From Gemmatimonadota bacterium (lineage in GTDB: Bacteria; Gemmatimonadota; Gemmatimonadetes; Gemmatimonadales; GWC2-71-9): a stretch of DNA of 64,000 bases. A program made the position numbers and the translations under genes. The notes beneath the pieces are model-generated. The model had not been told where the DNA came from, searched no databases, and saw nothing but the letters and a program-made list of their open reading frames with translations. Where the stretch lies: NCBI GenBank assembly GCA_040388535.1, contig JAZKBR010000002.1, positions 62,001-126,000 of the forward strand. Direction: 5' to 3'. Below, piece by piece: positions 3,775-22,424 of this stretch. Positions within the stretch are counted from its first letter, which is position 1, and each line of letters starts with the position of its first letter.

Positions 3775-3997
3775 GAGACCGCACGGTTAGGGCCGATGAG
3801 CCTGGTCGCGCCTAAGTTATGGAGTCGCTGTGGCGGGGAAAGGGCCTTCTCGCACAAAGTGTTTCGGAACGTTCGATTTCACCCAGATCGTCCCAACCTG
3901 TGACAGAAATCGCGACGCTGCGAGTGGTGGAGCGGGGCCGCACATTCGGAGTTACCCTTTTTCTGTTTCCTCCACCCCTCTTCCTGAAGGGATCCCC
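3775..3997. promoter_or_regulatory. Divergent intergenic region between kinase-permease and peptidase genes
   Basis: These 223 bases lie between two divergent genes, so both promoters should be here. The sequence just before 3998 is pyrimidine-rich with a GAAGG ribosome-binding motif at 3985-3989. I see no convincing -35/-10 pair or operator palindrome. The peptidase frame stays open upstream to an ATG at 3830, but that extension lacks a signal peptide at its start, so this stretch is treated as non-coding. Confidence 0.45.
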
Positions 3998-6121
3998 ATG
4001 CGCCGAGCGCTGCTCGTTCTTGCCCTCCTGCTCACTTCCCTGCGGCCCGCCGCGGCCCAGGTCTCTCGCCCCGATACCAGCGACCACTTCATCTGGCTTG
4101 AGGATGTCAGCGGTGAACGAGCGATGTCGTGGGTCAAGGCCGAGAACGGCAAGACCACGGACTTGCTCGAGAAAGACCCGCGCTACGCGGGTTTCTATCA
4201 GGGAATCCTGAAGATGGCCCAGGCGCAGGACCGCATCCCAGGCGTCAACTTCATCGGTGGCAGGCTTTACAACTTCTGGCGTGACTCGGCCCACATTCGT
4301 GGCATCTGGCGGAGCACGACACTCGCGAGCTATCGGACGCCGAAGCCGGTGTGGAGCACGGTGCTCGATCTCGACGCCATCGCGAAGCGCGAGAACGCTA
4401 ACTGGGTCTGGCAGGGCGCCGATTGTGTGCCGCCTGCAGAGCGGCGTTGCCTCATCTCACTCTCCGATGGTGGCGAGGACGCCTCCACCGTCCGCGAGTT
4501 CGATCTTGTCACCCGTGACTTCGTGCCCGGCGGATTCTCACTCCCGAAGGGGAAGCAAGACGTCACCTGGATGGGAAGTGACACCATCGTTGTTTCGCGC
4601 GAATGGAGCCCCGGCGATGTCACGGCGTCAGGATACCCCTTCATCGTCAAGCGACTCGCGCGCGGGCAGCCACTCTCGACCGCGGTCGAACTCTTTCGCG
4701 GCACCAAGGCCGATGTCTCGGCTCGCGCCGGCACCCTCGTCGACGGCGCTGGCCGAAGGGCCACCATCATCACCCGCTCTGTCTCCTTCTTCGAATCTGA
4801 GTTGTACATCGTCCGTGCCCACGACGTCGCAAGACTCGCGATGCCATTGAAGGCGAATTTCTCGGCGATGATCGATGGTCAGCTGGTGGTCGCGCTCTCC
4901 GAGGCCTGGCACGCTGGCGCGACGACGATAAAGAGTGGTGGCCTCGCCTCGTTCTCGGTGGCGACCGCAATGAAGACTCCCGACGCGCTCGCTCCGGTTG
5001 CGATCGTCGAGCCCGGCCCGCGCGAATCCGTCGCCGGTGCGTCAGCAACGCGAAACCGCCTGCTCGTGGGGATGACGGAGAATGTGAAGGGACGCGTGTT
5101 CTCGTTCGCGCGCAGCGCCGACGGCCACTGGCACCGCACGGCCATCGCCCTCCCCGATAACGCGGCCACCTACGTGGCAGCCGCCGATTCCCGCAGCGAT
5201 CTCGCCTTTCTCGGCGTGACGGGATTCCTGAATCCGACGTCGATCTGGATCGCCGACGCTGCCACAGCCTCGGCGAAGGTGCTCAAGTCGACGCCAGCTC
5301 GCTTCGATGCGTCGGGCCTCATGGTCGAGCAATTCGAGGCAACCTCGACCGATGGCACGAAGATCCCGTACTTCATCACCCACCCGAAGACGATGAAGCT
5401 CGACGGCTCGACACCAACTATCCTCACGGCATACGGCGGCTTCGAGGTATCCAGCACGCCGTACTACGATCAGAACGCTGGCAAGCTCTGGCTCACCCGG
5501 GGCGGTGCACTCGTGCTCGCGAATATTCGCGGCGGCGGAGAGTTCGGTCCGGCGTGGCACGAGGCCGGTCTCAAGACGAAGCGGCAGGTGATCTACGACG
5601 ACTTCGCTGCCGTGGCGCAGGATCTCATTGCCCGCAAGATCACGTCGCCTCGCCGGCTCGGCATCGTGGGTGGATCGAATGGTGGACTGTTGATGGGCGT
5701 CGAGATGAACCAGCACCCGGAGTTGTGGAACGCGGTGCAGATCGCCGTACCGCTGCTCGACATGCTGCGGTATGAGCAGATCGCTGCCGGCGCCTCGTGG
5801 GTTGGCGAGTATGGCAGCGTGGCGAACCCCGACGAGCGCGCCTTCCTCGCGAGCATCTCGCCGTACCACAACCTCAAGCCGGGGGTGAAGTACCCCACCC
5901 CGTTCATCTGGACTACCACGAAGGATGATCGGGTGGGCCCTCAGCACGCGCGAAAGCTTGCCGCGAAGATGGCGGAACTTGGGATGCCATATCTGTACTA
6001 TGAGGTGATCGAGGGAGGCCACGGTTCGGGGGCGAATGCGATCCAGCAGGCCCATACGAACGCCCTGGGGTACGTCTACTTCACCCGGCAGTTGATGGAT
6101 GGCGGGGCGGCGATTCCCTAG
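3998..6121 (+). CDS. Secreted prolyl oligopeptidase family (S9) serine peptidase
   Basis: The ATG at 3998 was chosen because it opens a clear signal peptide (MRRALLVLALLLTSLRPAAAQ) and has GAAGG 8-12 bases upstream; an in-frame ATG at 3830 would bury that signal. The 707-residue product has an N-terminal beta-propeller-like half and a C-terminal alpha/beta-hydrolase half. The catalytic serine is Ser560 in GGSNGGLL. The acid is Asp643 or Asp644 in KDDRVGPQHARK and the base is His675 in GGHGSG, the order expected for S9A enzymes. It should cleave proline-containing peptides outside the cytoplasm. Similar secreted peptidases are numerous in Gemmatimonadota. It ends 68 bases before the island's left boundary and is host chromosome. 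Confidence 0.88.
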   Translation: MRRALLVLALLLTSLRPAAAQVSRPDTSDHFIWLEDVSGERAMSWVKAENGKTTDLLEKDPRYAGFYQGILKMAQAQDRIPGVNFIGGRLYNFWRDSAHIRGIWRSTTLASYRTPKPVWSTVLDLDAIAKRENANWVWQGADCVPPAERRCLISLSDGGEDASTVREFDLVTRDFVPGGFSLPKGKQDVTWMGSDTIVVSREWSPGDVTASGYPFIVKRLARGQPLSTAVELFRGTKADVSARAGTLVDGAGRRATIITRSVSFFESELYIVRAHDVARLAMPLKANFSAMIDGQLVVALSEAWHAGATTIKSGGLASFSVATAMKTPDALAPVAIVEPGPRESVAGASATRNRLLVGMTENVKGRVFSFARSADGHWHRTAIALPDNAATYVAAADSRSDLAFLGVTGFLNPTSIWIADAATASAKVLKSTPARFDASGLMVEQFEATSTDGTKIPYFITHPKTMKLDGSTPTILTAYGGFEVSSTPYYDQNAGKLWLTRGGALVLANIRGGGEFGPAWHEAGLKTKRQVIYDDFAAVAQDLIARKITSPRRLGIVGGSNGGLLMGVEMNQHPELWNAVQIAVPLLDMLRYEQIAAGASWVGEYGSVANPDERAFLASISPYHNLKPGVKYPTPFIWTTTKDDRVGPQHARKLAAKMAELGMPYLYYEVIEGGHGSGANAIQQAHTNALGYVYFTRQLMDGGAAIP

Positions 6122-6410: not shown

Positions 6411-7646
6411 GTGTCCACGCTCACGGTACGTGCCCTCAACAACCTCTCGAAAAATCCGCCCGCCGAGAGGATAGAGCTCCAAGACCAGGCGGTGCCATCC
6501 CTCCGAGCAAGAGTAACCCCAAAGGGGGTGGTCTCGCTCTCCTGGTTCCGGTGGGTCGGTGCGCGGGCAAGACGAGTGACCCTCGGTCGATGGCCTGGCG
6601 TCTCCCTCGACGATGCGCGGGATGCTGCACGAAGGAAAGACCTCGATCTTGCGGCAGGTCTCGATGTTGTGCCCGCGCGGGGAGCGACTGACGGGCGATC
6701 GATCCTGAGTGCGGTCTGGGCCTCCTACTTCGAGCACTCCAAGTCACACCGAAAGCGGCCGGACGATGCGGCAAGTCGGTGGAAGCACCTCGCCTCGTTC
6801 AAAGATCGCCCCCTAGGAAGCATCACTGAGCAGGATGTCGAGCGATGGCACCGAACTCTCGGTCGCTCCACCGGTCAGGTCACCGCAAATCGCTGCCTCG
6901 GATTGCTCAGCGCCCTCTACAACCGGGCCATCCGCTCCGGCTTCCGAGGGAAAAACCCTTGCGCCTTCGTGGAGCGGTTCGCAGAGTCGCCACGAACACG
7001 GGTGCTTCAGGGCCACGAGACCACCAGGCTGCTCGCCTCGCTCGAGGCAGAGGCGGATGCGGACCTCAGGGATTTTATTCGCCTAGGGATGTCGACGGGG
7101 GCGCGCCGCGGGAATATCGCGGCGATGCGCTGGTCTGAGCTCGACCTGAACGCCCAGCTCTGGAGCATCTCCGGGGCGGATGCAAAGAACGGCCTCCCAC
7201 TGGTCTTGCCTCTCGGTGCGGATGCCATCGCGATATTGCGTCGGCGCGCGGAGGAAAATCGTGAATCGTCGGACTACATCTTCCCCGCCCGACGAGCGAA
7301 CCCGAAGTACCCCTACCAGACTTCGTGGCAGCCCCGCGTTCGGCGAGTTTTCGACCGCGCCGGGCTTCCCGATATCCGCTTCCACGATCTACGCCGGTCA
7401 TTCGGGACCTACTGCCTCAACTCCGGTACCGACCTCGCCCTTGTATCGGCCCTGTTGGGGCACCGGCAGCTCTCAACGACTGCGGCGGTCTACGCTCACG
7501 CAACGGCAGCAACGCTGCGCGCCGTTGTCGACCGAACCACCGTGCACCTCCTCGCTACTGCGACCGAGTCCCAGCGTCCGAAACTTCGGGCTCCATCTGC
7601 TGCAGCTCGTGGTGAACTCACTCCCGATTTTATGGAGGTGAGCTGA
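6411..7646 (+). CDS. Tyrosine recombinase / site-specific integrase of the island
   Basis: This 411-residue protein has the layout of island and prophage integrases of the P4/CP4-57 type. An N-terminal DUF4102-like arm-binding domain covers residues about 3-85, a core-binding SAM-like domain about 100-185, and the catalytic domain about 200-375. Catalytic residues are visible: Arg232 in TGARRG, Lys259, His325 and Arg328 in HDLRRS, His351 in LGHRQLS and Tyr361 in VYAH. The start is GTG at 6411, preceded by CGAGG. Its stop overlaps the next ATG by one base, so the two genes are co-transcribed. It sits 179 bases inside attL and should catalyse integration and excision at the tRNA-Gln site. Confidence 0.95.
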   Translation: MSTLTVRALNNLSKNPPAERIELQDQAVPSLRARVTPKGVVSLSWFRWVGARARRVTLGRWPGVSLDDARDAARRKDLDLAAGLDVVPARGATDGRSILSAVWASYFEHSKSHRKRPDDAASRWKHLASFKDRPLGSITEQDVERWHRTLGRSTGQVTANRCLGLLSALYNRAIRSGFRGKNPCAFVERFAESPRTRVLQGHETTRLLASLEAEADADLRDFIRLGMSTGARRGNIAAMRWSELDLNAQLWSISGADAKNGLPLVLPLGADAIAILRRRAEENRESSDYIFPARRANPKYPYQTSWQPRVRRVFDRAGLPDIRFHDLRRSFGTYCLNSGTDLALVSALLGHRQLSTTAAVYAHATAATLRAVVDRTTVHLLATATESQRPKLRAPSAAARGELTPDFMEVS

Positions 7647-8083
7647 TGTCGGATCCTTCGAGCAATAAGGAAAAGCGTGGGTTCAACATCGGCGACCCCG
7701 AAGCCTGGCATCGGCATTGGCTGGAAATGCAGCGACAGACCGTGAGGGAGCTTCGAGCCGAGGCAGACTATCTGGAGGATGCCACGGACAGGGGGATCGC
7801 CATCAGACCGGAAGTGAAGCAAATGACACAAGAAGAGGCCTTAATGCTCTGGGCCGAGGAGGACGGGAAACGCGGACGTAAGGTCTACCTCGCCTCACGA
7901 AGGGGAGGCTTAATCCACTCCGAGATGCAGCGGGCCAAGACAGCGGCCCGAAACGCCGAAATTCGCAAGGCAGTCACCAGCGGGGATGCTGTGAAGCCAG
8001 GCGGTCGTAAGCCAACCCAGAAAGAGATAGCAAAGCGGTTCAGAGTGAGCGCCTCGACGGTCAGCAGAATCGCCAAAACGTAA
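7646..8083 (+). CDS. Small HTH protein co-transcribed with integrase
   Basis: This 145-residue, highly charged protein has a C-terminal helix-turn-helix of the resolvase/Hin type (KPTQKEIAKRFRVSASTVSRI, about 123-143) and a helical N-terminal part rich in Glu, Lys and Arg. Its ATG overlaps the integrase stop by one base and follows a GGAGGTG ribosome-binding site. Position and fold suggest an accessory factor or regulator of island recombination. I do not recognise a named family beyond the HTH. Confidence 0.7.
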   Translation: MSDPSSNKEKRGFNIGDPEAWHRHWLEMQRQTVRELRAEADYLEDATDRGIAIRPEVKQMTQEEALMLWAEEDGKRGRKVYLASRRGGLIHSEMQRAKTAARNAEIRKAVTSGDAVKPGGRKPTQKEIAKRFRVSASTVSRIAKT

Positions 8084-10084: not shown

Positions 10085-10426
10085 TCAGGCCATGGCTCCG
10101 CAGGCCTGCGCACATGCTCGGCATACTTCCGCGCACCGTTGCATGGTTGCATCATCGCCGAATGCTTCACACGAGTCGGCGCACTTGTTACAACGCTCGG
10201 CGCACTCACGGCAGACGGCTTCGACTGACGGCGACATCTCCTGCATTGCCGTCGTGCACTTCGCGCAGCTCTCGACACAATCCTTCAACGATTGGATGTG
10301 ATCTGCCTCGGCGTGAGCACCGCCTTTGTCCAGGCAATATTTGAGAGTGCTTTCGCAGGTATCGTGGCACAGCTGACACGCTTCGATGCATTCCTGCATC
10401 GTTCCGTGATCCTGATGGGTCGTCAT
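10085..10426 (-). CDS. Cys-rich four-helix copper-storage protein (Csp/DUF326-like)
   Basis: This 113-residue cytosolic protein (no signal peptide) carries 17 cysteines spaced as CxxxC/CxxC along four predicted helices, for example ECIEACQLCHDTC, DCVESCAKC, VCRECAERCNKCADSC and RCAEVCRACAQAC. This is the pattern of Csp copper-storage proteins and DUF326, in which the helix bundle lumen is lined with Cys thiolates that bind many Cu(I) ions. The start follows GGAGATGA. It is the last gene of a leftward copper operon and should buffer cytosolic Cu(I). Confidence 0.85.
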   Translation of the reverse strand: MTTHQDHGTMQECIEACQLCHDTCESTLKYCLDKGGAHAEADHIQSLKDCVESCAKCTTAMQEMSPSVEAVCRECAERCNKCADSCEAFGDDATMQRCAEVCRACAQACGAMA

Positions 10427-10518
10427 ACTTCATCTCCACAGCAGGGGCAGTGAGGGAGCCGGTACGCCTGCCGCCCCTGCCTTGATTCAAGGCTGGCGCA
10501 CCGGTAGAGCAGTCAGTG

Positions 10519-11151
10519 TCAGGGGGTTGCCTTGCTCGTGAACTCGGCGATCTCACGCGTCTGGTCGCGCTTCATCTGCTCCGCCATCGCCTTGAGGTCA
10601 GGTCGCGTCGCCTTTGGCAGGTACGCATCGATCAGCGTGAGTGCTTCGCGATGGTGCTGAATGACGAGGCGATAAAAGGTTGAGGCGTACGCGCTCCCGG
10701 ACTTCGTGAGCAGCGTGTCGAGCATCGCGCCGTGAGCCCGGACCACCTTGGGTTCATAGGGATCCTTGTAATCCTTGTCGAGCATGGTGACCATCTTCTT
10801 GAGCTCCTCATCTTGCTGGGCATCCATTTTACCCGCGTCATTGCGGGACGCGGCGGTCCCCCGCCCTTCCTCCATCGTCTCGTGAGCCATCGCAATGAGG
10901 CCCTTGTGATGGTCGCTCATCATCCGAAGGAAATCGTGATTGGCGTCGCCAGTCATCGCCATTCCTTCCATCGCTCCGCCCGTCATGGCGGAGGCTGGAG
11001 CGACGGTGCCGGGGGCTGCCCCGGTCGCCGTGCTATCGACCGCTTTGCGTTCGACTTTGCTGCCACAGGCAGCGATCAACAGGAGGAGGGTAAGCTGGGC
11101 ATTACGTCGCACAGCGGTATTTCGGGAAGCTCGCGAGGTGATGCGATTCAT
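10519..11151 (-). CDS. DUF305 lipoprotein
   Basis: The start was set at the ATG at 11151, which gives a lipoprotein signal with lipobox LIAAC (Cys29); the frame is open further upstream but that part is antisense-like sequence overlapping copC-D. The 210-residue product has the two DUF305 helical units marked by HH pairs: NHDFLRMMSDHHKGLIAMA and YRLVIQHHREALTLIDAYL. A Met-rich linker (GGAMEGMAMTGD) precedes them. DUF305 proteins often accompany copper genes and their His/Met content suggests metal binding, but no enzymatic role is established. It is periplasmic, lies 49 bases after the CopC-CopD gene and is probably co-expressed. Confidence 0.82.
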   Translation of the reverse strand: MNRITSRASRNTAVRRNAQLTLLLLIAACGSKVERKAVDSTATGAAPGTVAPASAMTGGAMEGMAMTGDANHDFLRMMSDHHKGLIAMAHETMEEGRGTAASRNDAGKMDAQQDEELKKMVTMLDKDYKDPYEPKVVRAHGAMLDTLLTKSGSAYASTFYRLVIQHHREALTLIDAYLPKATRPDLKAMAEQMKRDQTREIAEFTSKATP

Positions 11152-11200
11152 TGGTCGTCGTCCGTTGGGTGGGAGCGCGCTGGCAGGGGAGGAACTGCCG

Positions 11201-12619
11201 TCATGGACCGCCCGCGGCGAGCGGAGTCGGCAGGGAGACGAGGACGGCCGTGACGAAAAGCACAAGGATGGCGATGAGCGCCTCCACACTGGCTGATCGA
11301 ACCACCCGGGCTGCTCCGACTCGGTCTCCGAGCGCGGGAAGGACGCGTCGCCAGTTGTAGGCACCCGTAGCGACGACCAACGAGAGAATCGTCAGCTTGA
11401 GTAACAGCACGCGCCCGAAGGCCGTCGTCAAGAGTTCCGAAAGGTGTCCGATATGAATCCACGCCGAGGCGACCCCGGTAAGCCCCGCAAGTGCAGCACA
11501 GGTAAGCGCGACCGGAGAGTACGCGGTGACCAGTTCAGCTGCCAAAGTGCCATGATCCTCTGTCGACCCCACTGCCGCTGTTATGGAGACGATCAGCATC
11601 ACAGCAAGGGTTCCCAACCATCCGGCAGCGCCGAGGATATGCAGACCATCGGAGAGGACAGCAAGCGGGACCAGTCGTTCGGCAGCAATGGCGTGTCCCG
11701 AGAATGCGGGAGTGAAGGCGAGGAATAACGTCACGACGCGCACCGGCATCCAATGCGACGTCGCGCGGGCCCGACGGAACAAGACTACGGCAGCGAGTGT
11801 GAGCGCCAGCTGCGCCAACCAGCTCCACCCCCACATCGTGTGCGCGATCATCCCGCCAACTATCTCGGCCTGGAACGCCTGTCCCGGCGCGTGCATTGCC
11901 ACCGACTGGGCGACCAGCCGAAGAGGTAGCGTCACGAGGAGCAGAAGAGCGGCGATCTGCCCGACGGCGGCGCTCAACACCGTCAACTCCCCGCGGGGTG
12001 GCATCCCGAGGGCTGTCCAGCGCCGCGCAACGCGCCCGAGGACGGCCGCTTGAAAGACCGCGGCACCAACGATGCCAACGAGGGCCAGGTACATCAACCA
12101 TCGCACTCCGACGAAAAGCGGATCCGAGGCGTCAAACGCCGGCCAAACCGATTCAGCCAGATGGTGACCCTCGTGCGCCACTGCTTCGGCCGCAGGCACA
12201 ACTACGGCAGCGGCCTCCCCGCCCGCCCGCACGCGCCTGCCCACCACGAAGCGGTATTCACCCCTGACAACGTGGGCGTCATCACCTGCCACCTGCCAGC
12301 GCACGAGATACTCACCAGTCCCGAGAGCACGCGGGAGCGTAGCCACGATGGTGCCGAGCGAGTCCGGGACTACGACGAGCGGACCCAATGCCGCCATGGT
12401 GCCATCGGGAGCTACCAGCTCGAGGCGGGAGAAGCGCAGCTCGATTGCTTCGCTGAAGGTGAGCCGCAGTTGCAGTGGTGAAGCGACTAAGGAGTCGGCA
12501 GCCGCAGGTGTCGACCGACGGAGGAAGGGGTGGGCGCGCGCGATCGATGGCTGGGTCAGCAGCAGCAGTGCCGCGCCCAACGTGGCGAGGGGAAAAACTC
12601 GAGCTGCATTCCCTTTCAC
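11201..12619 (-). CDS. CopC-CopD fusion, copper resistance/import protein
   Basis: This 472-residue protein joins a periplasmic CopC domain to an eight-helix CopD membrane domain. After the signal peptide (cut after ARA, residue 29) the mature chain begins with His30. Together with Asp114 and His116 in DDAHVV, this forms the histidine-brace Cu(II) site of CopC. CopD segments follow from about residue 160. In YcnJ/CopCD systems this pair takes copper across the inner membrane. The GTG start overlaps the upstream stop as GTGA (4 bases), showing tight translational coupling to the Met-rich secreted protein. Confidence 0.9.
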   Translation of the reverse strand: MKGNAARVFPLATLGAALLLLTQPSIARAHPFLRRSTPAAADSLVASPLQLRLTFSEAIELRFSRLELVAPDGTMAALGPLVVVPDSLGTIVATLPRALGTGEYLVRWQVAGDDAHVVRGEYRFVVGRRVRAGGEAAAVVVPAAEAVAHEGHHLAESVWPAFDASDPLFVGVRWLMYLALVGIVGAAVFQAAVLGRVARRWTALGMPPRGELTVLSAAVGQIAALLLLVTLPLRLVAQSVAMHAPGQAFQAEIVGGMIAHTMWGWSWLAQLALTLAAVVLFRRARATSHWMPVRVVTLFLAFTPAFSGHAIAAERLVPLAVLSDGLHILGAAGWLGTLAVMLIVSITAAVGSTEDHGTLAAELVTAYSPVALTCAALAGLTGVASAWIHIGHLSELLTTAFGRVLLLKLTILSLVVATGAYNWRRVLPALGDRVGAARVVRSASVEALIAILVLFVTAVLVSLPTPLAAGGP

Positions 12620-14034
12620 GGGTGCTTCATCCCCGGCATTGGTGGTATCGGTTTCGTGACGGTCGTGTCGGGTCGCACGCGAGGTTTCGGTACCGCACTC
12701 TGTCGGGGTGTCACCGAAGGTGGAGTGGTTGGCGCGGGGAGTGCGGCCCTCAGCCGCCGCAGCATCGCATCGGACTGCAGCCGGCGACTGATGACGGGAT
12801 CGCGCAACATCGCCTCGAGCAGCTGTCGTCGCGCGGCATCAACATTCGGCATCGTCATCCCCGGCATGGATGGCGCAGCCGGGGTAGAGTCGCGGCTTAC
12901 CGGACGAATCTGCGGAGGTGGCGGGGTTGCCATCCCAGGCATCCCCCGCATCGAGGAGTCCCTAGATGACGCGGCACCGTGCTGCATCCCGGCCATCCCT
13001 TCCACCGGCTCGCTCGACGAGGGACGCAAGAGCAGCCCCGTCGCGGGACCGCCCATCGCCCCGACTCCCCCCATCATCGACCCCATTTCATGCCACTCCT
13101 TCATGGTCATCACGTTGCGTGTGGTATCACGGAACTCTGCCAGCGCCTCGTAGATCACCTTCCGCTTGTCTGCGCGAGGGACCACATCCGCCGCGAGGAT
13201 GTCGGAGATGATGTCGTGCATCATGTGCAGGTTGTCGAAAATCACTGCGGCGCGCGGATGCGCCGCACTGAATCGCGGCGCGATCGCAGAAGCCATCGGC
13301 ATCGTCTTGGGCAAGTTGACGGGTGCGTCCTTGAGCATCGACCAGAATCGTGCCAGCGTCGCCTGCACCCCGGCTTTTCGTTCTGCACGCGTCGCACCGA
13401 TGATCAGCGGTTCGTACAGCCCCACCTGCAGCCAGTGGTACGACCAGATGAGACCATTGAACTTTGGGTACCCTTTGCGAAAGACCTGGCTGTAATACTG
13501 CTCGTCCATCAACGCCATCGACTTCGGCACCGGGCGGAAAGCGTAATCCGACCGCGTCAGGTAATAGTCGGTGAGCCGTTCGATCAAGACATCTCGCTCC
13601 GCAGGCGAGAGTCGCTCATCGGAATACGCGTCATAGATCTGCCGGTGGAGCAGGTGCGCCCAGTCGAACATCTGCTTCGCCTGCCAGACCAGCTTGGAGT
13701 ATGTTGGTTCCACAGCCTCCTCGACGATGGCGAATCGCGGCGGACGAATGAGGAGATCTTTGGTGAGGAAGTCGAATTGCCGACCCTCCAGTTCCGAATG
13801 CAGGTTGCCCGGCTTGGTGAGCAGCTTCTCGTAGAGCACCGCATGCCCATAGTCGAACGCATTGAAGAGCCGGGCCGCCTCGGGATACGTGCTCAGGAAT
13901 TGCCAATTGAACGAACCGGGAAAGTAGAACTGTTCATTGCGCTGATCCTGTGCGCCAACCGTGATGGCCAGGAGGGCCACCCCGATGGTCCCGCACGCAG
14001 TGCGCCTGATTGCGCGATGAATCTTCGTGGGCAC
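12616..14034 (-). CDS. Secreted Met-rich protein of unknown family in copper operon
   Basis: A GTG start at 14034 was chosen because AGGAGG lies 8 bases upstream; a GTG at 14043 would overlap that site. The 472-residue product has a signal peptide (TIGVALLAITVGAQ) and a long helical body rich in Trp, Tyr and His up to about residue 300. The C-terminal about 170 residues are low-complexity with repeated Met motifs: MAGMQHG, MRGMPGM, MPGMTMP and a final MPGMKHP. Met clusters of this kind bind Cu(I) in periplasmic proteins. I do not recognise the body as a known family. It lies between an outer-membrane barrel and CopC-CopD, so a periplasmic copper carrier or sensor is plausible. Confidence 0.7.
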   Translation of the reverse strand: MPTKIHRAIRRTACGTIGVALLAITVGAQDQRNEQFYFPGSFNWQFLSTYPEAARLFNAFDYGHAVLYEKLLTKPGNLHSELEGRQFDFLTKDLLIRPPRFAIVEEAVEPTYSKLVWQAKQMFDWAHLLHRQIYDAYSDERLSPAERDVLIERLTDYYLTRSDYAFRPVPKSMALMDEQYYSQVFRKGYPKFNGLIWSYHWLQVGLYEPLIIGATRAERKAGVQATLARFWSMLKDAPVNLPKTMPMASAIAPRFSAAHPRAAVIFDNLHMMHDIISDILAADVVPRADKRKVIYEALAEFRDTTRNVMTMKEWHEMGSMMGGVGAMGGPATGLLLRPSSSEPVEGMAGMQHGAASSRDSSMRGMPGMATPPPPQIRPVSRDSTPAAPSMPGMTMPNVDAARRQLLEAMLRDPVISRRLQSDAMLRRLRAALPAPTTPPSVTPRQSAVPKPRVRPDTTVTKPIPPMPGMKHP

Positions 14035-14056
14035 GACATCCACCTCCTGTAATGTC

Positions 14057-14944
14057 TCAGCGGCCCCGAGGCATCAGCCCCGGAATTGCGAAGGCGTGCG
14101 ACAACCCGACAGTGAGGGCGACGTCCGGGCCGAGGTCGGAGCGGAGGCGTCGTGCAATGCCTGCGTCGAACACCGTGGTCGCGTGCCACTGGTAGCGCAG
14201 GCCAAATCCGGCGTTGACCTCAGTTGGGACTCCCTCGGTCGTACGGCGCGCTGTGATTTCTCCGATGAACATCAGGCTCTGCCGAAAAAACGTCCTGTCG
14301 ATCGCTGCGCCGTAGCTCCATCGACTCAGTGGATCGACCGGCCGGAGGCTGGCTTCCGATCCGAGCCCTCGCGCGACATTCAAATGCAAGCGTGTCGCAC
14401 CCCAGCTCCTGGTGGCGATGGCTTTCACAGCGACCCGGGTGCCGTGGCCCCCTAGCGGCCCGACCCCGAATGACACATCGGCCCGCAAGGCCAAGGCAGG
14501 TACCCGTGCTCGCTCGGTGTTGAAATTGTAAAACCCGAAGAGTGAAACACCGGCCAGACCGGATCGCGACCCTGCGGCGGGCTCGGCGACGCTGGAGCCG
14601 TCGGTGAGCGTCGCGAACGGGAGCTTCAGGCCGATCTGTCCATTCTGAATCAGGCCGTACGCCAATTCGGGTACCGTGAGGTGGAGTCGGCTACCACCCA
14701 CCATTCGCTCGAAGCGATACGGCATCAACAGCTCGAACGCATAGCGCTCGACCGGATAGGCATCTTCAGTGACAGTTGGGCGGTCGTCATCGAGGTTCCG
14801 GTAGTCGATCTGGGCCGTCGCCGGACGAGCGATGGTCACAAGTAGCAGCAGACCACCGAGCCCCACGGATGGCAACCAACGTCGCGATGCTCCCTGCCTC
14901 AAGCCCTTACCTGCTGCCGCAACCTCATTCGCGGTGCGTAACAT
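14057..14944 (-). CDS. Outer-membrane beta-barrel protein, first gene of copper operon
   Basis: The 295-residue protein has an N-terminal signal anchor ending at ARPATAQ (about residue 45) and then alternating strands ending in an aromatic/hydrophobic terminal strand, with many Gly, Arg and aromatic residues. This is the look of the MetA-like/transporter-type barrels annotated as putative outer-membrane proteins. It starts the leftward operon with the Met-rich protein, CopC-CopD, DUF305 and Csp genes, 23 bases from the next start. A role as a copper-related porin or exporter is inference from position. The ATG at 14944 has only a weak ribosome-binding site. Confidence 0.65.
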   Translation of the reverse strand: MLRTANEVAAAGKGLRQGASRRWLPSVGLGGLLLLVTIARPATAQIDYRNLDDDRPTVTEDAYPVERYAFELLMPYRFERMVGGSRLHLTVPELAYGLIQNGQIGLKLPFATLTDGSSVAEPAAGSRSGLAGVSLFGFYNFNTERARVPALALRADVSFGVGPLGGHGTRVAVKAIATRSWGATRLHLNVARGLGSEASLRPVDPLSRWSYGAAIDRTFFRQSLMFIGEITARRTTEGVPTEVNAGFGLRYQWHATTVFDAGIARRLRSDLGPDVALTVGLSHAFAIPGLMPRGR

Positions 14945-15125: not shown

Positions 15126-15803
15126 ATGCGCATTCTAGTCGTCGAGGATGACCCGAAAACAGCCAGATTCCTCAAGCAAGGACTGGAGGAGGAGGGCCAC
15201 GCGGTAGACGTCGCGGTCGACGGCGAGGAGGGATCGTTTCTGGGTCACCTCAACCCTTACGACCTGATTCTCCTGGACATCCAGCTCCCCAAGCGGAACG
15301 GATTGCAGCTCTCCAGCGAGTTGCGGCGTGAAGGGATCAGCACACCGATTCTCATGCTTACGGGGCGCGACTCGACTCCCGATGTGATCCGCGGCCTCAA
15401 CGCCGGTGCCGACGACTACCTCACGAAGCCGTTCGACTTCGACGAACTGTTGGCGCGAGTAAACGCCCTCACTCGACGGCAGACTGGACCGGTGAGCGGT
15501 GTGCTCCGCTTCGGCGATCTCGAGCTCGATCGCCTCCAGCGGCGAGTGCGTACGGGCGGCCGCGCGATCGACTTGTCCCCTCGAGAGTTTCGACTCCTGG
15601 AGTATTTCATGCTGTTCCCAGAGCAGGTGGTGACGCGGGTGCAGTTGCTCGAAAAGGTCTGGGATATGTCGTTTGACCCCGAGACAAACGTGATCGACGC
15701 GCACGTCTCGAACCTCCGCAAGAAGCTCGAGCAGCACGGTAACCCGCGAGTCATCGAGACCGTTCGCGGCGCTGGCTACGCCCTGCGACACGGCAGACAG
15801 TAG
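15126..15803 (+). CDS. OmpR/CusR-type response regulator
   Basis: The 225-residue protein has a receiver domain (1-118) with acidic pocket EDD (7-9), phosphoacceptor Asp51 in LLDIQLP, Thr79 and Lys101 in LTKPF, followed by an OmpR-type winged-helix domain (about 128-223). The gene is one base before a histidine kinase, so the two form a two-component system. Its divergent position to the copper operon points to control of that operon, as with CusR/CopR regulators, although the metal sensed cannot be read from the regulator. Confidence 0.93.
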   Translation: MRILVVEDDPKTARFLKQGLEEEGHAVDVAVDGEEGSFLGHLNPYDLILLDIQLPKRNGLQLSSELRREGISTPILMLTGRDSTPDVIRGLNAGADDYLTKPFDFDELLARVNALTRRQTGPVSGVLRFGDLELDRLQRRVRTGGRAIDLSPREFRLLEYFMLFPEQVVTRVQLLEKVWDMSFDPETNVIDAHVSNLRKKLEQHGNPRVIETVRGAGYALRHGRQ

Positions 15804-15804
15804 A

Positions 15805-17220
15805 ATGCGGTCGTTTCGGGCTGCTCTTGCCGTCCGAGTGGCCCTCGGAGCATTGGCCCTGCTGACCGCTGCTGGCATCGTCAGCACACTCGCGCTGCGC
15901 ACGATCCTCTATCGCCAACTGGACGGCACACTCCTGCACCTTGCCGAGGTGGAGGCGCAGGCAGGAGCCGCGACCAGCGGCTCAGATTTTGTGTTCCACG
16001 AGGGCGTCTTGCTCGCCGCGCGCGAAGGGCCCTCGGTGGAACTGATTCGGTACGCTCAGCTGTGGAGCCACGACGGGCAGCCCGTCGTGCGCAGCGGCAA
16101 CCTGACAGCCAACCTCACCCTCCCAGCCTCGGCGCTCGAGGAGGCGGGAGCTGGCCAAGTGGCGAGTGTGAGCCAGGTTTGGCGCGGGCGTCCGATCCGG
16201 AGTGTGGTGTATCCGATGTCGCTCGTCGGTGCGGCGCACCAGGTCCATCTCCTGCAGGTCGCCGCACCCACTGAGCCGCTACGCCAGACACTTGTGCGCT
16301 TCGCCTTGTTTGTCGTATTCCTCACCCTGCTCGGAACCGTCGGGGGCTATGCCCTTGGCCGGGGGCTGGCCGCGGCGGCACTTCGACCGACTGGGGAGAT
16401 CACGGCGCAGGCCGAGGCGATTTCGGAGGGCACGCTGTCGGAGCGGATTACGGCGCACGCGGACGTCGACGAATTCACTCGCCTGGTGACCGTCCTGAAC
16501 GGGATGCTGAATCGGCTCGATCGCGCCTTCCAGGTCCAACGGCAATTCACCGCTGATGCCAGCCACGAGTTACGCGCCCCGCTCACCGTCCTGAAAGGCG
16601 ACATCGACGTAACGTTGAAGCGGGACCGGACCGTGGAGGAGTACCGAGACACGCTGGTGCGCTGTCGCGAGGAAGTGGAACGGCTGACGCGGCTTGCCAG
16701 CGATCTTCTGGTGTTGGCGCGTTCGGATGCCGCCCTCCCGCTCGAGCACGTCGCGGAGGTCGATGTGCGTGGGCTGATCGATCGGGTCGCGGCTCGATTC
16801 CAGGCGGCGGCGGCAGCTCGCCATGTCCACTTGACCACCGTAACGGTGGACGCGGTTGGGTGGGGGGACGAACGCTTGCTCGATCGCATCGTGACGAACC
16901 TGGTCGACAATGCCGTCAAGCACTGCGCACCAGATGGACACGTCGTTATCGAACTCGTTCAAGAGGCCCACATTGCGGTCACGGTTCGGGACGACGGCCC
17001 CGGAATCCGACCCGAGCATCTACCGCAATTGTTCGTGCGGTTCTTCCGAGGAGATCCCGCCCGGCGGCGCGGCGACGGCACCGGACTCGGCCTCGCTATT
17101 GCGAAGGCGGGGGCCGAGGCGCACGGGGGTCGTCTCGAGTTTCTTGGTAATTCTCCCGGCGCAGTGTTTCGGCTCAGTCTACCGGCGGCCAACTCCGCCG
17201 GAGATACTACCGCGCGGTGA
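15805..17220 (+). CDS. Sensor histidine kinase, CusS-like
   Basis: The 471-residue kinase has TM1 at about 8-30, a periplasmic sensor loop of about 120 residues, TM2 at about 165-185 and a HAMP linker. Then follow HisKA with His254 in DASHELRAPL and a HATPase domain with N box DNAVKH, G1 DDGPGI and G2 GTGLGLAIAK. The layout matches CusS/CopS metal sensors. The periplasmic loop contains a few His residues but no obvious Met cluster, so the Cu(I) assignment depends on context. It starts one base after the response regulator. Confidence 0.92.
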   Translation: MRSFRAALAVRVALGALALLTAAGIVSTLALRTILYRQLDGTLLHLAEVEAQAGAATSGSDFVFHEGVLLAAREGPSVELIRYAQLWSHDGQPVVRSGNLTANLTLPASALEEAGAGQVASVSQVWRGRPIRSVVYPMSLVGAAHQVHLLQVAAPTEPLRQTLVRFALFVVFLTLLGTVGGYALGRGLAAAALRPTGEITAQAEAISEGTLSERITAHADVDEFTRLVTVLNGMLNRLDRAFQVQRQFTADASHELRAPLTVLKGDIDVTLKRDRTVEEYRDTLVRCREEVERLTRLASDLLVLARSDAALPLEHVAEVDVRGLIDRVAARFQAAAAARHVHLTTVTVDAVGWGDERLLDRIVTNLVDNAVKHCAPDGHVVIELVQEAHIAVTVRDDGPGIRPEHLPQLFVRFFRGDPARRRGDGTGLGLAIAKAGAEAHGGRLEFLGNSPGAVFRLSLPAANSAGDTTAR

Positions 17221-18624: not shown

Positions 18625-19149
18625 TTACCGTGTGAAGGCGTGCTGGGCCTCCCGAACCATCCGCCGCGTACACCATCGCGCGTATGATCGTCCCAGAAGC
18701 CGGCCCAGGACCCAGGAGATCCCCTTGGCCGGAAGCTCGTAGTCGATCACGACACGCAAATTCGTCTGCGCCCCGACTGGCGCGAGGTCGAAGCCCATGT
18801 GATATGGCCCCATCACGAGTAGCCGCGGCTCGCCGACTGTTTCCCAGGTTTTGCCGAGCGGCGGATCGCGGCGGGTCACAACCTCATCGAGATGCAAACG
18901 GACCCCGAATACCCGCCCGCGCAGGACGATGTGCGACCCCACCGAGCGCCCGCGCTGCGCGTCGAGCACCGTCTCCATTTTCCCCCACCCGAGCTTCCAC
19001 GAGCGCTTGCTCATATGTTCCGTCAGGCGCGTCTGATCGTCTAGCAGTTCGAAGACCCGTTCGGCCGAGGCGTGGATCGCTCCGCTGTGTTCCTCATGCT
19101 GCAGCTCCGGGCAGTGACCTTTGCGATGACGAAAATGAAAGCGCTTCAC
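18625..19149 (-). CDS. SRPBCC-fold protein, last gene of Cus operon
   Basis: The GTG at 19149 overlaps the stop of the RND gene as GTGA, so translation is coupled. The frame is open further upstream but only as antisense-like sequence inside the pump gene. The 174-residue product contains a START/SRPBCC-type pattern: HASAERVFELLDDQTRL, VGSHIVLRGRVFGVRLHLDE, PRLLVMGPYHMGFDLAP and a C-terminal helix. Such proteins bind small hydrophobic ligands or lipids. An N-terminal His/Cys stretch (FHFRHRKGHCPELQHEEH) is unusual and could bind metal. Confidence 0.7.
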   Translation of the reverse strand: MKRFHFRHRKGHCPELQHEEHSGAIHASAERVFELLDDQTRLTEHMSKRSWKLGWGKMETVLDAQRGRSVGSHIVLRGRVFGVRLHLDEVVTRRDPPLGKTWETVGEPRLLVMGPYHMGFDLAPVGAQTNLRVVIDYELPAKGISWVLGRLLGRSYARWCTRRMVREAQHAFTR

Positions 19150-22100
19150 TTTGCCAGCGCCGGAGGCGACGTTGCGAGCGGACCGGCCCTCACACCGCGT
19201 TCCTTCCAGAGCGAGTAGACCGCAGGGATGACGACGAGCGTCAGGATGGTGCTGCTGACCATCCCGCCCACCATCGGTGCCGCGATTCGCTTCATTACGC
19301 TCGCCCCCGCTCCTGACCCCCACAAAATCGGAAGGAGACCTGCCATGATGGCCGTCACCGTCATCATCTTGGGTCGCACGCGTTCGACGGCTCCTTCCAT
19401 GACTGCCTCGTACAGGTCGCGGAGGGAGGGGCTCCCTGTGGCTTTGCTACGAGCGGCCCACGCATGGTCGAGGTAGATCAGCATCACGACCCCGGTTTCC
19501 GCCGCCACCCCGGAAAGCGCGATGAACCCGATGGCCACCGCCACGGACCAGTTGTAGCCCAGCAGCCAGATCAGCCAGATGCCACCCACCAGGGCGAAGG
19601 GGAGAGAGAGCATCACGATCAGCGTCTCGCCGACGCTCTTGAAATTGAAATAGAGCAGCAGGAAGATGATCGCCAGCGTCGCCGGAATCACCAGCTTCAT
19701 CCGTTCCTTCGCCCGCTGCATATACTCGAACTGTCCACTCCAGACCATCGTGTATCCGGGGGGCAACGTCACCGCCCGCTCCACCTGGCTCTTGGCGTCT
19801 GCCACGTATCCGCCGATGTCCCGCCCAACCACGTCCACGTACACCCACGCCGTTGGCTGAGCGCCCTCGGTACGTATGACCATCGGGCCAGCGACCTGCT
19901 TGATGGTTGCAATCTGGCCAAGTGGAACGAACGCCTCCCCTCCGCCGCTCGTGGCGGCATCGCCCATCGAGGCGGCTGCCGAGGTCCCCTGGCCGGGGGC
20001 GAGCCCGTGGATCGTGGGGATCAGGACCGCGGCCAGCCGCTCAGGGTTATCGCGCAGTTCTGTCGGGTAGCGAATCCGGACGCCGTAACGCTCACGTCCT
20101 TCCACGGTCTGGGTAATGACCATTCCTCCGACCGCAGTCGCGATCACCGTCTGCACGTCGCCGATATTGAGACCGTGACGCGCCGCCGCAGCGCGGTCGA
20201 TATCGATGTCGAGGTAATAGCCTGACACCGCCCGCTCGGCGAAGGCGCTGCGAGTGCCGCGCACCATTTGCACCGCACGCTCTACCTCCTTCCCGAGTCG
20301 CTCAAGTTCGGCCAGGTCGGGGCCGAACAACTTGATTCCCACCGGCGTGCGAATGCCGGTGGCGAGCATATCGATACGCGCCTTGATCGGCATCGTCCAG
20401 GCGTTGGTGATGCCCGGCAGCCGCACCGCTGAGTCCATCGCCGCCACGAGGGCGTCATACGTCATCCCCTCACGCCACTCCGACTCGGGCTTGAGGGTGA
20501 TGGTCGTCTCGAACATATCGAGCCCCGCGGGGTCGGTCGCCGTGTTGGCGCGCCCCGCCTTGCCCCAGACGTGATCAACTTCCGGGAAACTCTTCAGTAT
20601 CCCGTCCTGGACCTTGAGGATTTCCCTCGCGCGCGCCACGCTCACCCCGGGCAATGTGGTCGGCATGAAGAGGATGGTGCCTTCGCCGAGCGGCGGCATG
20701 AACTCCCCGCCGATGCGCGACCAGGGAATCAGCGTCAGCACCAGCGCCACCACCGCTCCACCCACGACCGGCCAACGACTCCGCAACACGAAGGTGATGA
20801 CCGGTCGGTAGACCGCGATGAGCCAGCGATTGATGGGGTTGGCGCGTTCCCGGTAGATCTTCCCTCGGATGAAGAGCCCCATCGTGACCGGCACGATGGT
20901 GAGAGAAAGGAGGCTCGCGGCGGCCATCGCGAAGGTCTTGGTAAAGGCGAGGGGCTTGAAGAGCCGGCCTTCCTGCCCCTCCAGTGTGAATACCGGAATG
21001 AACGACACTGTGATGATGAGCAGGGAGATGAACAGCGCAGGACCGACCTCTCTGGCGGACTCGCGGACCACCTGCCATCGCTCCTCAGTGGTGAGGACTC
21101 CGGTATCCAGGGCACGTCCCGCCGGCTCCCGCCCGACGGCGTGCTCCTTGGCGTCCACGGCGCGTTCCAGATGTTTGTGCATGTTCTCGATCATCACGAT
21201 GGCGGCATCGATCATTGCGCCGATCGCGATCGCGATACCGCCGAGCGACATGATGTCGGCCCCCACGCCGACCCACCGCATCGCAATGAACGCCATCAGG
21301 ATTCCGAGCGGCAATGTCAGTATGGCCACCAGGGCCGAGCGGGCGTGGAGCAGGAACACGATGCAGACCACCGCAACGACCAGGCTTTCCTCGAGCAACT
21401 TGCCACGTAGATTTTCGATCGCCCGGTTGATCAGATCGCTCCGATCGTAGACCGGGGTGAGCACGACACCCTCAGGAAGCCCCCGCTGAATCTCCTGAAT
21501 CTTCGCCTTGACCCGGCCGATCGTGGCGAGCGCGTTCTGACCGAAGCGCATCACTACGATCCCGCCCACGGCGTCCCCACGTCCGTCCAGTTCCGCAATC
21601 CCTCGTCGGACAGCGGGACCGACGCTCACGCGACCCAGTTCGGCGACGCGAATCGGTGTCCCACTGGCGGTGGCACCGACGACGACGTTCTCGATATCGG
21701 CGAGCGACTTGAGGTAGCCCAATCCGCGCACCATGTACTCCCGCTCGGACAGCTCCACCACCATGGCCCCGATATCGGCATTCGCATTCTGAATTGCCGC
21801 CATGACCGCGGTGATCGGGATGCGATAGCCGAGCAGCTTGGCTGGATCGAGGTCCACCTGATATTGCTTTTCGAACCCGCCGAGCGCCGCGACTTCCGAG
21901 ACTCCGGGCACCGCCGTCAGTGCATACCGGAGGTACCAGTCCTGGATACTGCGCAATTCGGCGAGACTCTTGCGCCCGGTGGTGTCTTCGAGGGCGTACT
22001 GATACACCCAGCCCAGACCGGTCGCGTCGGGCCCGAGTGTGGGGGTCACGTTCGCGGGAAGCTTTCCCTTGATGCCGCTCAGGTACTCAAGGACTCGTGA

Positions 22101-22424
22101 GCGTGCCCAATAGAGGTCGGTCCCGTCTTCGAAGATGATGTAGACGAAGGAGATCCCGAAAAACGAGTAACCACGCACCGTTCGCGACCCCGGCACCTTG
22201 AGCATCTCGGCCGCGATGGGATAGGTGACCTGGTCTTCAACGATCCTGGGTGCCTGGTCGTTGTACTCGGCCTGCACGATCACTTGCACATCGCTGAGAT
22301 CGGGCAACGCCTCGAGCGGCGTACGGTTGATGGCCCACATTCCGCCGCCAATCACCGCGATCGTGAAGATGAGGACGATGAGCCGGTTTGACACCGACCA
22401 GTCGATGAGCCGTCTAAGCATCAC
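19146..22424 (-). CDS. cusA: CusA-type heavy-metal RND efflux pump (HME, Cu/Ag)
   Basis: The 1092-residue inner-membrane pump has the RND repeat of two 6-TM blocks with large periplasmic loops. TM4 carries IAIAIGAMIDAAIVMIEN (about 392-409), the form found in CusA Cu(I)/Ag(I) pumps rather than the DFGxxVD form of CzcA. The protein is slightly longer than E. coli CusA. It follows an adaptor with a Met-rich tail and an outer-membrane factor, in the order C-B-A, with near-zero spacing. It should use the proton gradient to export monovalent copper or silver from the periplasm through the tripartite channel. Confidence 0.93.
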   Translation of the reverse strand: MMLRRLIDWSVSNRLIVLIFTIAVIGGGMWAINRTPLEALPDLSDVQVIVQAEYNDQAPRIVEDQVTYPIAAEMLKVPGSRTVRGYSFFGISFVYIIFEDGTDLYWARSRVLEYLSGIKGKLPANVTPTLGPDATGLGWVYQYALEDTTGRKSLAELRSIQDWYLRYALTAVPGVSEVAALGGFEKQYQVDLDPAKLLGYRIPITAVMAAIQNANADIGAMVVELSEREYMVRGLGYLKSLADIENVVVGATASGTPIRVAELGRVSVGPAVRRGIAELDGRGDAVGGIVVMRFGQNALATIGRVKAKIQEIQRGLPEGVVLTPVYDRSDLINRAIENLRGKLLEESLVVAVVCIVFLLHARSALVAILTLPLGILMAFIAMRWVGVGADIMSLGGIAIAIGAMIDAAIVMIENMHKHLERAVDAKEHAVGREPAGRALDTGVLTTEERWQVVRESAREVGPALFISLLIITVSFIPVFTLEGQEGRLFKPLAFTKTFAMAAASLLSLTIVPVTMGLFIRGKIYRERANPINRWLIAVYRPVITFVLRSRWPVVGGAVVALVLTLIPWSRIGGEFMPPLGEGTILFMPTTLPGVSVARAREILKVQDGILKSFPEVDHVWGKAGRANTATDPAGLDMFETTITLKPESEWREGMTYDALVAAMDSAVRLPGITNAWTMPIKARIDMLATGIRTPVGIKLFGPDLAELERLGKEVERAVQMVRGTRSAFAERAVSGYYLDIDIDRAAAARHGLNIGDVQTVIATAVGGMVITQTVEGRERYGVRIRYPTELRDNPERLAAVLIPTIHGLAPGQGTSAAASMGDAATSGGGEAFVPLGQIATIKQVAGPMVIRTEGAQPTAWVYVDVVGRDIGGYVADAKSQVERAVTLPPGYTMVWSGQFEYMQRAKERMKLVIPATLAIIFLLLYFNFKSVGETLIVMLSLPFALVGGIWLIWLLGYNWSVAVAIGFIALSGVAAETGVVMLIYLDHAWAARSKATGSPSLRDLYEAVMEGAVERVRPKMMTVTAIMAGLLPILWGSGAGASVMKRIAAPMVGGMVSSTILTLVVIPAVYSLWKERGVRAGPLATSPPALAK

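Follow-up and report, generated by a model that had tools for sequence, protein, structure and literature searches.

Among the few known envelope copper systems, PcoABCD/CopABCD offers the closest comparison for the locus described here. The PcoB barrel has 12 strands, and fusions of PcoC to PcoD are common (accessible text of PMC9210255); a disordered Met/His-rich region, needed for function in Caulobacter, is found in most PcoB homologues (accessible text of PMC12509749). We analyzed a stretch of 64,000 bp from a Gemmatimonadota bacterium (contig JAZKBR010000002.1, positions 62,001 to 126,000; the window), and in particular the minus-strand gene at 12616–14034, encoding a protein of 472 amino acids (aa). 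The core of this protein (residues ~26–345) represents an unannotated family with duplicated His motifs and a near-constant channel partner, and is no ordinary gene. As in PcoABCD, a 12-strand outer-membrane barrel (predicted here), a periplasmic partner, a Met/His-rich disordered region and CopC plus CopD are encoded in one operon. In contrast with PcoABCD, a scan of the operon genes revealed no multicopper oxidase, the barrel is closer to the COG4313/PF13557 type than to CopB, and the helical partner is unrelated to PcoA; cupredoxin domains of PcoA/CopA were not detected by Pfam in the 472 aa protein or in 20 members of its family, and the model is all-helical. The resemblance to PcoABCD, drawn by analogy, is one of layout only. 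The features of the gene and of its partner are listed here, the conservation classes being defined below.

12616–14034, minus strand: secreted helical His-motif protein with a Met-rich tail, an open frame of 472 aa
14043–14048, minus strand: AGGAGG ribosome-binding site, seen in the sequence 8 nt ahead of the GTG at 14034
13483–13938, minus strand: repeat 1 of the core, residues 33–184, from profile comparison with repeat 2
13033–13482, minus strand: repeat 2 of the core, residues 185–334, from profile comparison with repeat 1
13828–13854, minus strand: helix A motif D61xxH64x4E69 (HxxHx4[E/D] in class I), from row conservation
13630–13656, minus strand: helix B motif H127xxH130x4D135, from row conservation
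13411–13437, minus strand: helix C motif H200xxQ203x4E208 (HxxH in class I), from row conservation
13201–13227, minus strand: helix D motif H270xxH273x4D278, from row conservation
12619–12999, minus strand: Met-rich C-terminal tail, residues 346–472 (127 aa), accessory, from motif enrichment
14057–14944, minus strand: predicted 12-strand outer-membrane beta-barrel of the COG4313/FapF type, from model, fold match and neighbourhood

Core relatives were present in 18 of 61 close genomes and in 120 of the 395 genomes sampled across the phylum Gemmatimonadota, with 284 stretches in the genome_contigs collection. Three plasmid records carried one (one Gemmatirosa, two Methylobacterium), and no relative was found in the viral sequences searched. 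In the openly licensed literature, supplementary files aside, we found no paper naming the core family. The family is new, and the function proposed below is a reasoned guess. A chance open frame was ruled out by protein-level conservation across hundreds of loci. We distinguished three classes, whose names were coined in this analysis. Class II (84 rows: L024–L103, L001 and L120–L122) includes the group of the window; class I (8 rows: L021, L022, L109–L112, L117 and L119) consists of six Gemmatimonadota and two Methylobacterium sequences; class III comprises 10 rows (L104–L108, L113–L116 and L123). These counts omit L003–L020, many of which come from the same genomes as L024–L103, and L023. 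The locus counts given below for class II refer to the best 80 of the 284 genome_contigs stretches (L024–L103), and this sample therefore leans to the clade of the window itself.

Comparison of the profiles of the two core halves gave a score of 68.9 (E-value 4.3e-11), against at most 23.6 for 100 column shuffles of one half and 9.5 for the reversed half. The aligned halves placed the same motif, HxxHx4[E/D], on corresponding helices, helix A (61–69) pairing with helix C (200–208) and helix B (127–135) with helix D (270–278), four long helices in total. H64, H127, H130, H200, H270 and H273 were invariant in class II (84/84 rows), as were E69, D135, Q203 and D278; D61 was found in 83 of the 84 rows (one gap) and E208 in 80, the remaining four having Asp. 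In class I, positions 61 and 203 were both His (8/8), giving HxxH on all four helices and eight invariant His. H127, H130, D135, H270 and H273 were each kept in 8/8 rows and D278 in 6/8; the acidic position was preserved on the four helices of the six Gemmatimonadota sequences, position 278 being Ser in the two from Methylobacterium. The symmetry of class I between its two repeats leads us to infer an ancestral state of eight His, with one His lost from the first helix of each repeat in class II. Most motif His were gone from class III. A tree was built from 49 rows, comprising the 18 rows of the two smaller classes and 31 of the 84 class II rows. Class I formed a single clade (support 100/99), as did class III (100/100), the latter being nested within class II. 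The conserved His of the core look like a putative metal site. In the unclassed relative L118 (3939–5564) most motif His were lost, and the same genome (G124) holds an intact-looking copy elsewhere; L118 is perhaps a paralogue losing its site.

The GTG at 14034 was preferred as start codon to a second in-frame GTG at 14043, because the AGGAGG sits eight bases before the former. A general secretory (Sec)-type signal peptide was apparent by eye at the N-terminus, and the single Cys of the protein, residue 14, lies inside it. Twenty-two bases separate the end of the barrel gene from the start codon. A plus-strand frame at 12979–14052 overlaps the gene. The class I pairs of the two Methylobacterium plasmids (L021, 8983–11338; L022, 6902–9147) showed strong signal peptides resembling those of the twin-arginine translocation (Tat) pathway; in L022, an upstream frame resembling CsoR was noticed by eye, as well as a DUF326 relative. 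Tat export was rejected as a general trait, a Tat-like motif being present, by the usual consensus, in just 2 of 89 N-termini.

The core was modelled with AlphaFold2 from 81 sequences. Residues 20–360 were predicted to be all-helical, with a mean predicted local distance difference test score (pLDDT) of 91.3 and a predicted TM-score (pTM) of 0.88, followed by a disordered end. Neither single sequences nor a 20-row alignment matched any Pfam or NCBIfam family above noise, and the same was true of the Methylobacterium plasmid relative and of divergent Gemmatimonadota relatives. A sequence search of the PDB with the core gave nothing with an E-value below 0.3. The best Foldseek match of the core model in the PDB had an E-value of 0.67 and a TM-score of 0.11, and the best VIA-align 2 match a Z-score of 4.2, both of them noise levels for helical proteins. 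Structure prediction and profile searches agree with the original prediction, which placed about 300 residues of an unrecognised helical family ahead of the tail. A clear match to an enzyme family, named there as grounds for abandoning the idea, was looked for with single proteins and with the alignment and was not found. No solved relative of the core fold was detected, which does not prove that the predicted fold is new.

Several known helical or metal-binding families were compared. Tyrosinase, imelysin and haemerythrin did not figure among the Foldseek and VIA matches listed for the core, although this does not rule out any of the three. Type-3 copper proteins (tyrosinase, haemocyanin) use HxxxH. 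They share with the core the idea only, two halves each contributing His from helices; the core has HxxH instead, with no sequence match and no fold match among those listed. The tyrosinase/haemocyanin Pfam families did not match the core or the relatives scanned, and a tyrosinase profile found nothing in related genomes, an uninformative result as the control genomes were likewise silent. Proteins of the imelysin/EfeO/EfeM group (Peptidase_M75) are secreted helical metal proteins with a tandem duplication and the motif HxxE, whereas the core carries HxxH and has no Pfam match. PF09375 matched neither the core nor the 20-row alignment; it was silent in genome G000 and found in 4 of 14 control genomes. 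The window itself also encodes helical copper binders of the Csp copper storage and DUF305/CopM kinds, and a DUF305 domain is fused to the core in L093. However, the Cys-lined four-helix bundle of Csp has no counterpart in the core protein, with its single Cys. A relation of the core to DUF305 was rejected, hhalign giving a probability of 0.2 against the N half, the C half and the whole core.

The constant partner of the core is an outer-membrane barrel, not CopC; the gene upstream, at 14057–14944, had been overlooked in the original prediction. Its model was all-beta (pLDDT 90.0, pTM 0.86) and aligned with FapF (5o68; VIA Z 25.1, root-mean-square deviation 2.1, 220 residues aligned) and with a COG4313 channel (4rl8; VIA Z 23.1, deviation 2.3, 218 aligned; Foldseek E-value 3.4e-8). 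PF13557 matched 33 of 70 barrel members at an E-value of 0.1 or less (best 1.8e-6), the barrel of the window itself giving no match; the CopB Pfam family had no match listed among the 70 at the same threshold. PcoB was absent among the Foldseek and VIA matches listed for the barrel, which does not exclude a PcoB-like fold. The partner thus shares the fold of the COG4313/Phenol_MetA_deg channels and of FapF, but differs from them in its copper-linked setting and in its near-constant helical His-motif partner or fused domain.

A barrel homologue adjoined the core in 74 of the 80 class II loci and in none of 20 control stretches. These controls were 20 kb each, taken at chosen round positions in eight genomes (400 kb, compared to 795 kb for the loci). 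Among the six loci without a barrel, five have about 220 bases or fewer upstream of the core, and only L103 remains. In eight loci (L037, L038, L045, L070, L072, L090, L091 and L094), barrel and core were fused in one frame. As the termini of outer-membrane barrels point to the periplasm (accessible text of PMC9210255), a domain that continues the chain after the final strand is expected in that compartment. The barrel gene was located downstream on the same strand in all eight class I loci, Methylobacterium plasmids included, and no barrel homologue was found in the ten class III loci. The genome of the window possesses a second barrel and core pair (L121, C2:998000–1008500, at 3873–5665), in which a tail-less core gene lies behind a barrel gene of its own, the two overlapping by four bases; no copper marker was seen within the 10.5 kb examined.

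The genes surrounding the pair in the window are the following.

11201–12619, minus strand: fused CopC-CopD (Pfam CopC 1e-16, CopD 9.7e-17), with a GTG start
10519–11364, minus strand: DUF305/CopM-like protein (Pfam DUF305 4e-19)
10085–10426, minus strand: Cys-rich DUF326, Csp-like protein (Pfam DUF326 1.7e-07; the Csp1 model was below cut-off)
15126–15803, plus strand: divergent response regulator, by Pfam, a possible regulator of the locus
15805–17220, plus strand: sensor kinase, by Pfam, divergent and likewise a possible regulator
19146–22424: resistance-nodulation-division (RND) pump gene, named 'CusA' by eye

The DUF305/CopM-like and DUF326 genes (10085–11364) extend the same run of copper genes; the DUF305 frame is given from its first start, at 11364, which overlaps the end of CopC-CopD, and may begin further in. 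The same divergent response regulator was found at the related loci L025, L027, L028 and L029. The stop of the core gene and the start of CopC-CopD (12619) share four bases, GTGA. The overlap with CopC-CopD that the original prediction had described does exist, but it lies at the stop of the gene, and the start is not coupled.

Its description of a secreted protein in a copper setting was borne out by the apparent signal peptide and by the class II loci. Within the stretches examined, CopC was present in 13 of the 80, a P-type ATPase with a CPC motif in 17 and a CsoR-type regulator with a C-H-C pattern in nine, each compared to 0/20 controls. Taken together, 28 of the 80 loci had at least one of these three markers, against none of the control stretches. 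CopD was found in 11/80 loci and a DUF326 relative in 2/80; a CusA-like pump, a weak marker, occurred in 10/80 loci and in 2/20 controls. As a CopC gene is common (273 of 395 genomes), the neighbourhood weighs more than co-occurrence.

We propose, tentatively and at somewhat less than even confidence, that the core is a periplasmic domain binding a metal, probably copper, and docked on an outer-membrane channel, in a PcoABCD-like layout made of non-homologous parts, which stand where PcoA and PcoB would be. In this model, the core would be a periplasmic, all-helical metal-binding protein in which one helical unit occurs twice in tandem. The His/Asp/Glu motifs of the four long helices would probably build one or two copper sites inside the helical bundle. 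The core would dock at the periplasmic mouth of the COG4313/FapF-like 12-strand channel, capture periplasmic copper, and either export it through the channel or prevent it from reaching the channel. In members that have one, the flexible Met/His-rich tail could act as a mobile copper-catching arm, and the fused CopC-CopD would handle the inner-membrane side. The analysis establishes the family with its duplication and invariant motifs, the partner, the fusions, the copper-gene setting and the predicted folds; copper as the metal, the geometry of the site, docking, the direction of transport and a role in resistance are our proposal. It is unlikely, in our opinion, that the core goes further and represents a new fold with a new His-built multinuclear copper centre, born by tandem duplication of a helical HxxHx4[E/D] unit, with eight His ancestrally, and functionally replacing, at the mouth of an outer-membrane channel, the PcoA oxidase/PcoB channel pair.

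Several observations weigh against the docked copper domain. In 52 of the 80 loci none of the three specific copper markers was seen in the stretch examined, and class I had almost none, the only case being the Csp-like match in L022. A CopC neighbour was found in 5 of the 10 class III loci despite the lost motif His, indicating that the copper link is independent of the full motif. On a helical wheel, the motif residues lay 28–60 degrees off the conservation moment and 72–121 degrees off the hydrophobic moment, and an inward orientation of these residues is faintly suggested. Finally, the known COG4313 channels have been implicated in the uptake of hydrophobic molecules, not copper (accessible text of PMC4493636). 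The class III relatives adjoining CopC/CopD are L104 (1705–5871), L105, L106, L113 and L123; a cytochrome c gene lies near L104 as well, and a downstream gene without a name overlaps by four bases at L104, L106 and L113.

The main rival explanation is enzymatic: the core would be a metalloenzyme, for example a binuclear-copper oxidase standing in for the multicopper oxidase PcoA, or an oxygenase whose substrates are hydrophobic compounds entering via the channel. Six to eight invariant His together with Asp/Glu, in pseudo-twofold halves, are closer to a catalytic binuclear site than to a chelator. The strong Tat-like signals of the two Methylobacterium relatives, the cytochrome c gene linked to L104 and the occurrence of COG4313 channels in catabolic settings (accessible text of PMC4493636) point the same way. 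We nevertheless hold this explanation to be rather improbable, as no enzyme family was matched, the Tat-like motif was limited to the 2 of 89 N-termini and no substrate genes were recognised around class II.

In the second rival explanation, the motif would hold something other than copper, namely iron, zinc, manganese or haem, and the copper genes would be no more than frequent neighbours. His/Asp/Glu ligands without Cys fit iron or zinc, and class I is nearly devoid of copper markers outside L022, with one class I locus lying near MerT. The excess of copper genes around class II, the Met-rich, copper-type tails and the DUF305 fusion of L093 all argue for copper, and we consider another metal to be unlikely. 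The MerT mercuric transport gene is found in L111 at 7396–7758, approximately 2.5 kb from the core gene.

The Met-rich tail is real yet accessory. It contains 12 Met and 2 His in 127 aa, and its repeated MPGM-type motifs, reported in the original prediction, withstood shuffling of the same tail: M[AGPRT]GM occurred five times (0/10000 shuffles as high), and MxxM five times against a mean of 1.03 (7/10000 as high). Among relatives, tails of at least 40 residues were present in 63 of 101 frames examined (some genomes counted twice); these 63 pooled contained 8.0% Met and 5.4% His, the mean Met content of the cores being 4.6%. In many relatives the tail was short or absent, and other domains sometimes took its place: a SnoaL-like domain in L060, L030 and L120, a DUF2231 membrane domain in L029, and a DUF305/CopM-like domain fused to the core in L093 (E-value 5.9e-42). 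The tail had been the main argument of the original prediction, an emphasis that does not stand, since it is variable and the invariant part is the His/Asp/Glu set of the core.

The original prediction had proposed a copper chaperone, whose Met-rich tail would hand the metal on to the CopC site within the CopC-CopD fusion. The stop-start overlap, the tail motifs and the excess of CopC over the controls speak for it. As the general job of the family it does not hold: 67 of the 80 loci were without CopC in the stretch examined, compared to 74 with a barrel, many relatives have a short tail or none, and the conserved partner is the barrel. We regard such a chaperone as distinctly improbable. The earlier observation was partly confirmed and its interpretation partly supported. 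A mainly structural role of the helical domain, gating or plugging the barrel while the His motifs hold a structural metal, would fit the fusions, the constant pairing and the family signature retained by class III after loss of the His, but is very improbable given twelve polar positions near-absolutely conserved across the clade of the window and given that the His-lacking class III is also without a barrel match (0/10).

To return to the copper-binding domain docked on its channel, the core may belong to a hitherto undescribed mechanism for handling copper at the cell surface, because of the candidate metal-site His, the copper-gene setting and the near-constant channel partner. The candidate metal site comes down to twelve named residues in a protein without solved relative; the natural fusions of channel and domain offer a target for crystallisation, and the His-poor class III clade a built-in control. 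If true, an unannotated family present in about a third of the sampled genomes of a common soil phylum would join the few envelope copper systems, and a layout of the PcoA/PcoB type would be buildable from unrelated parts.

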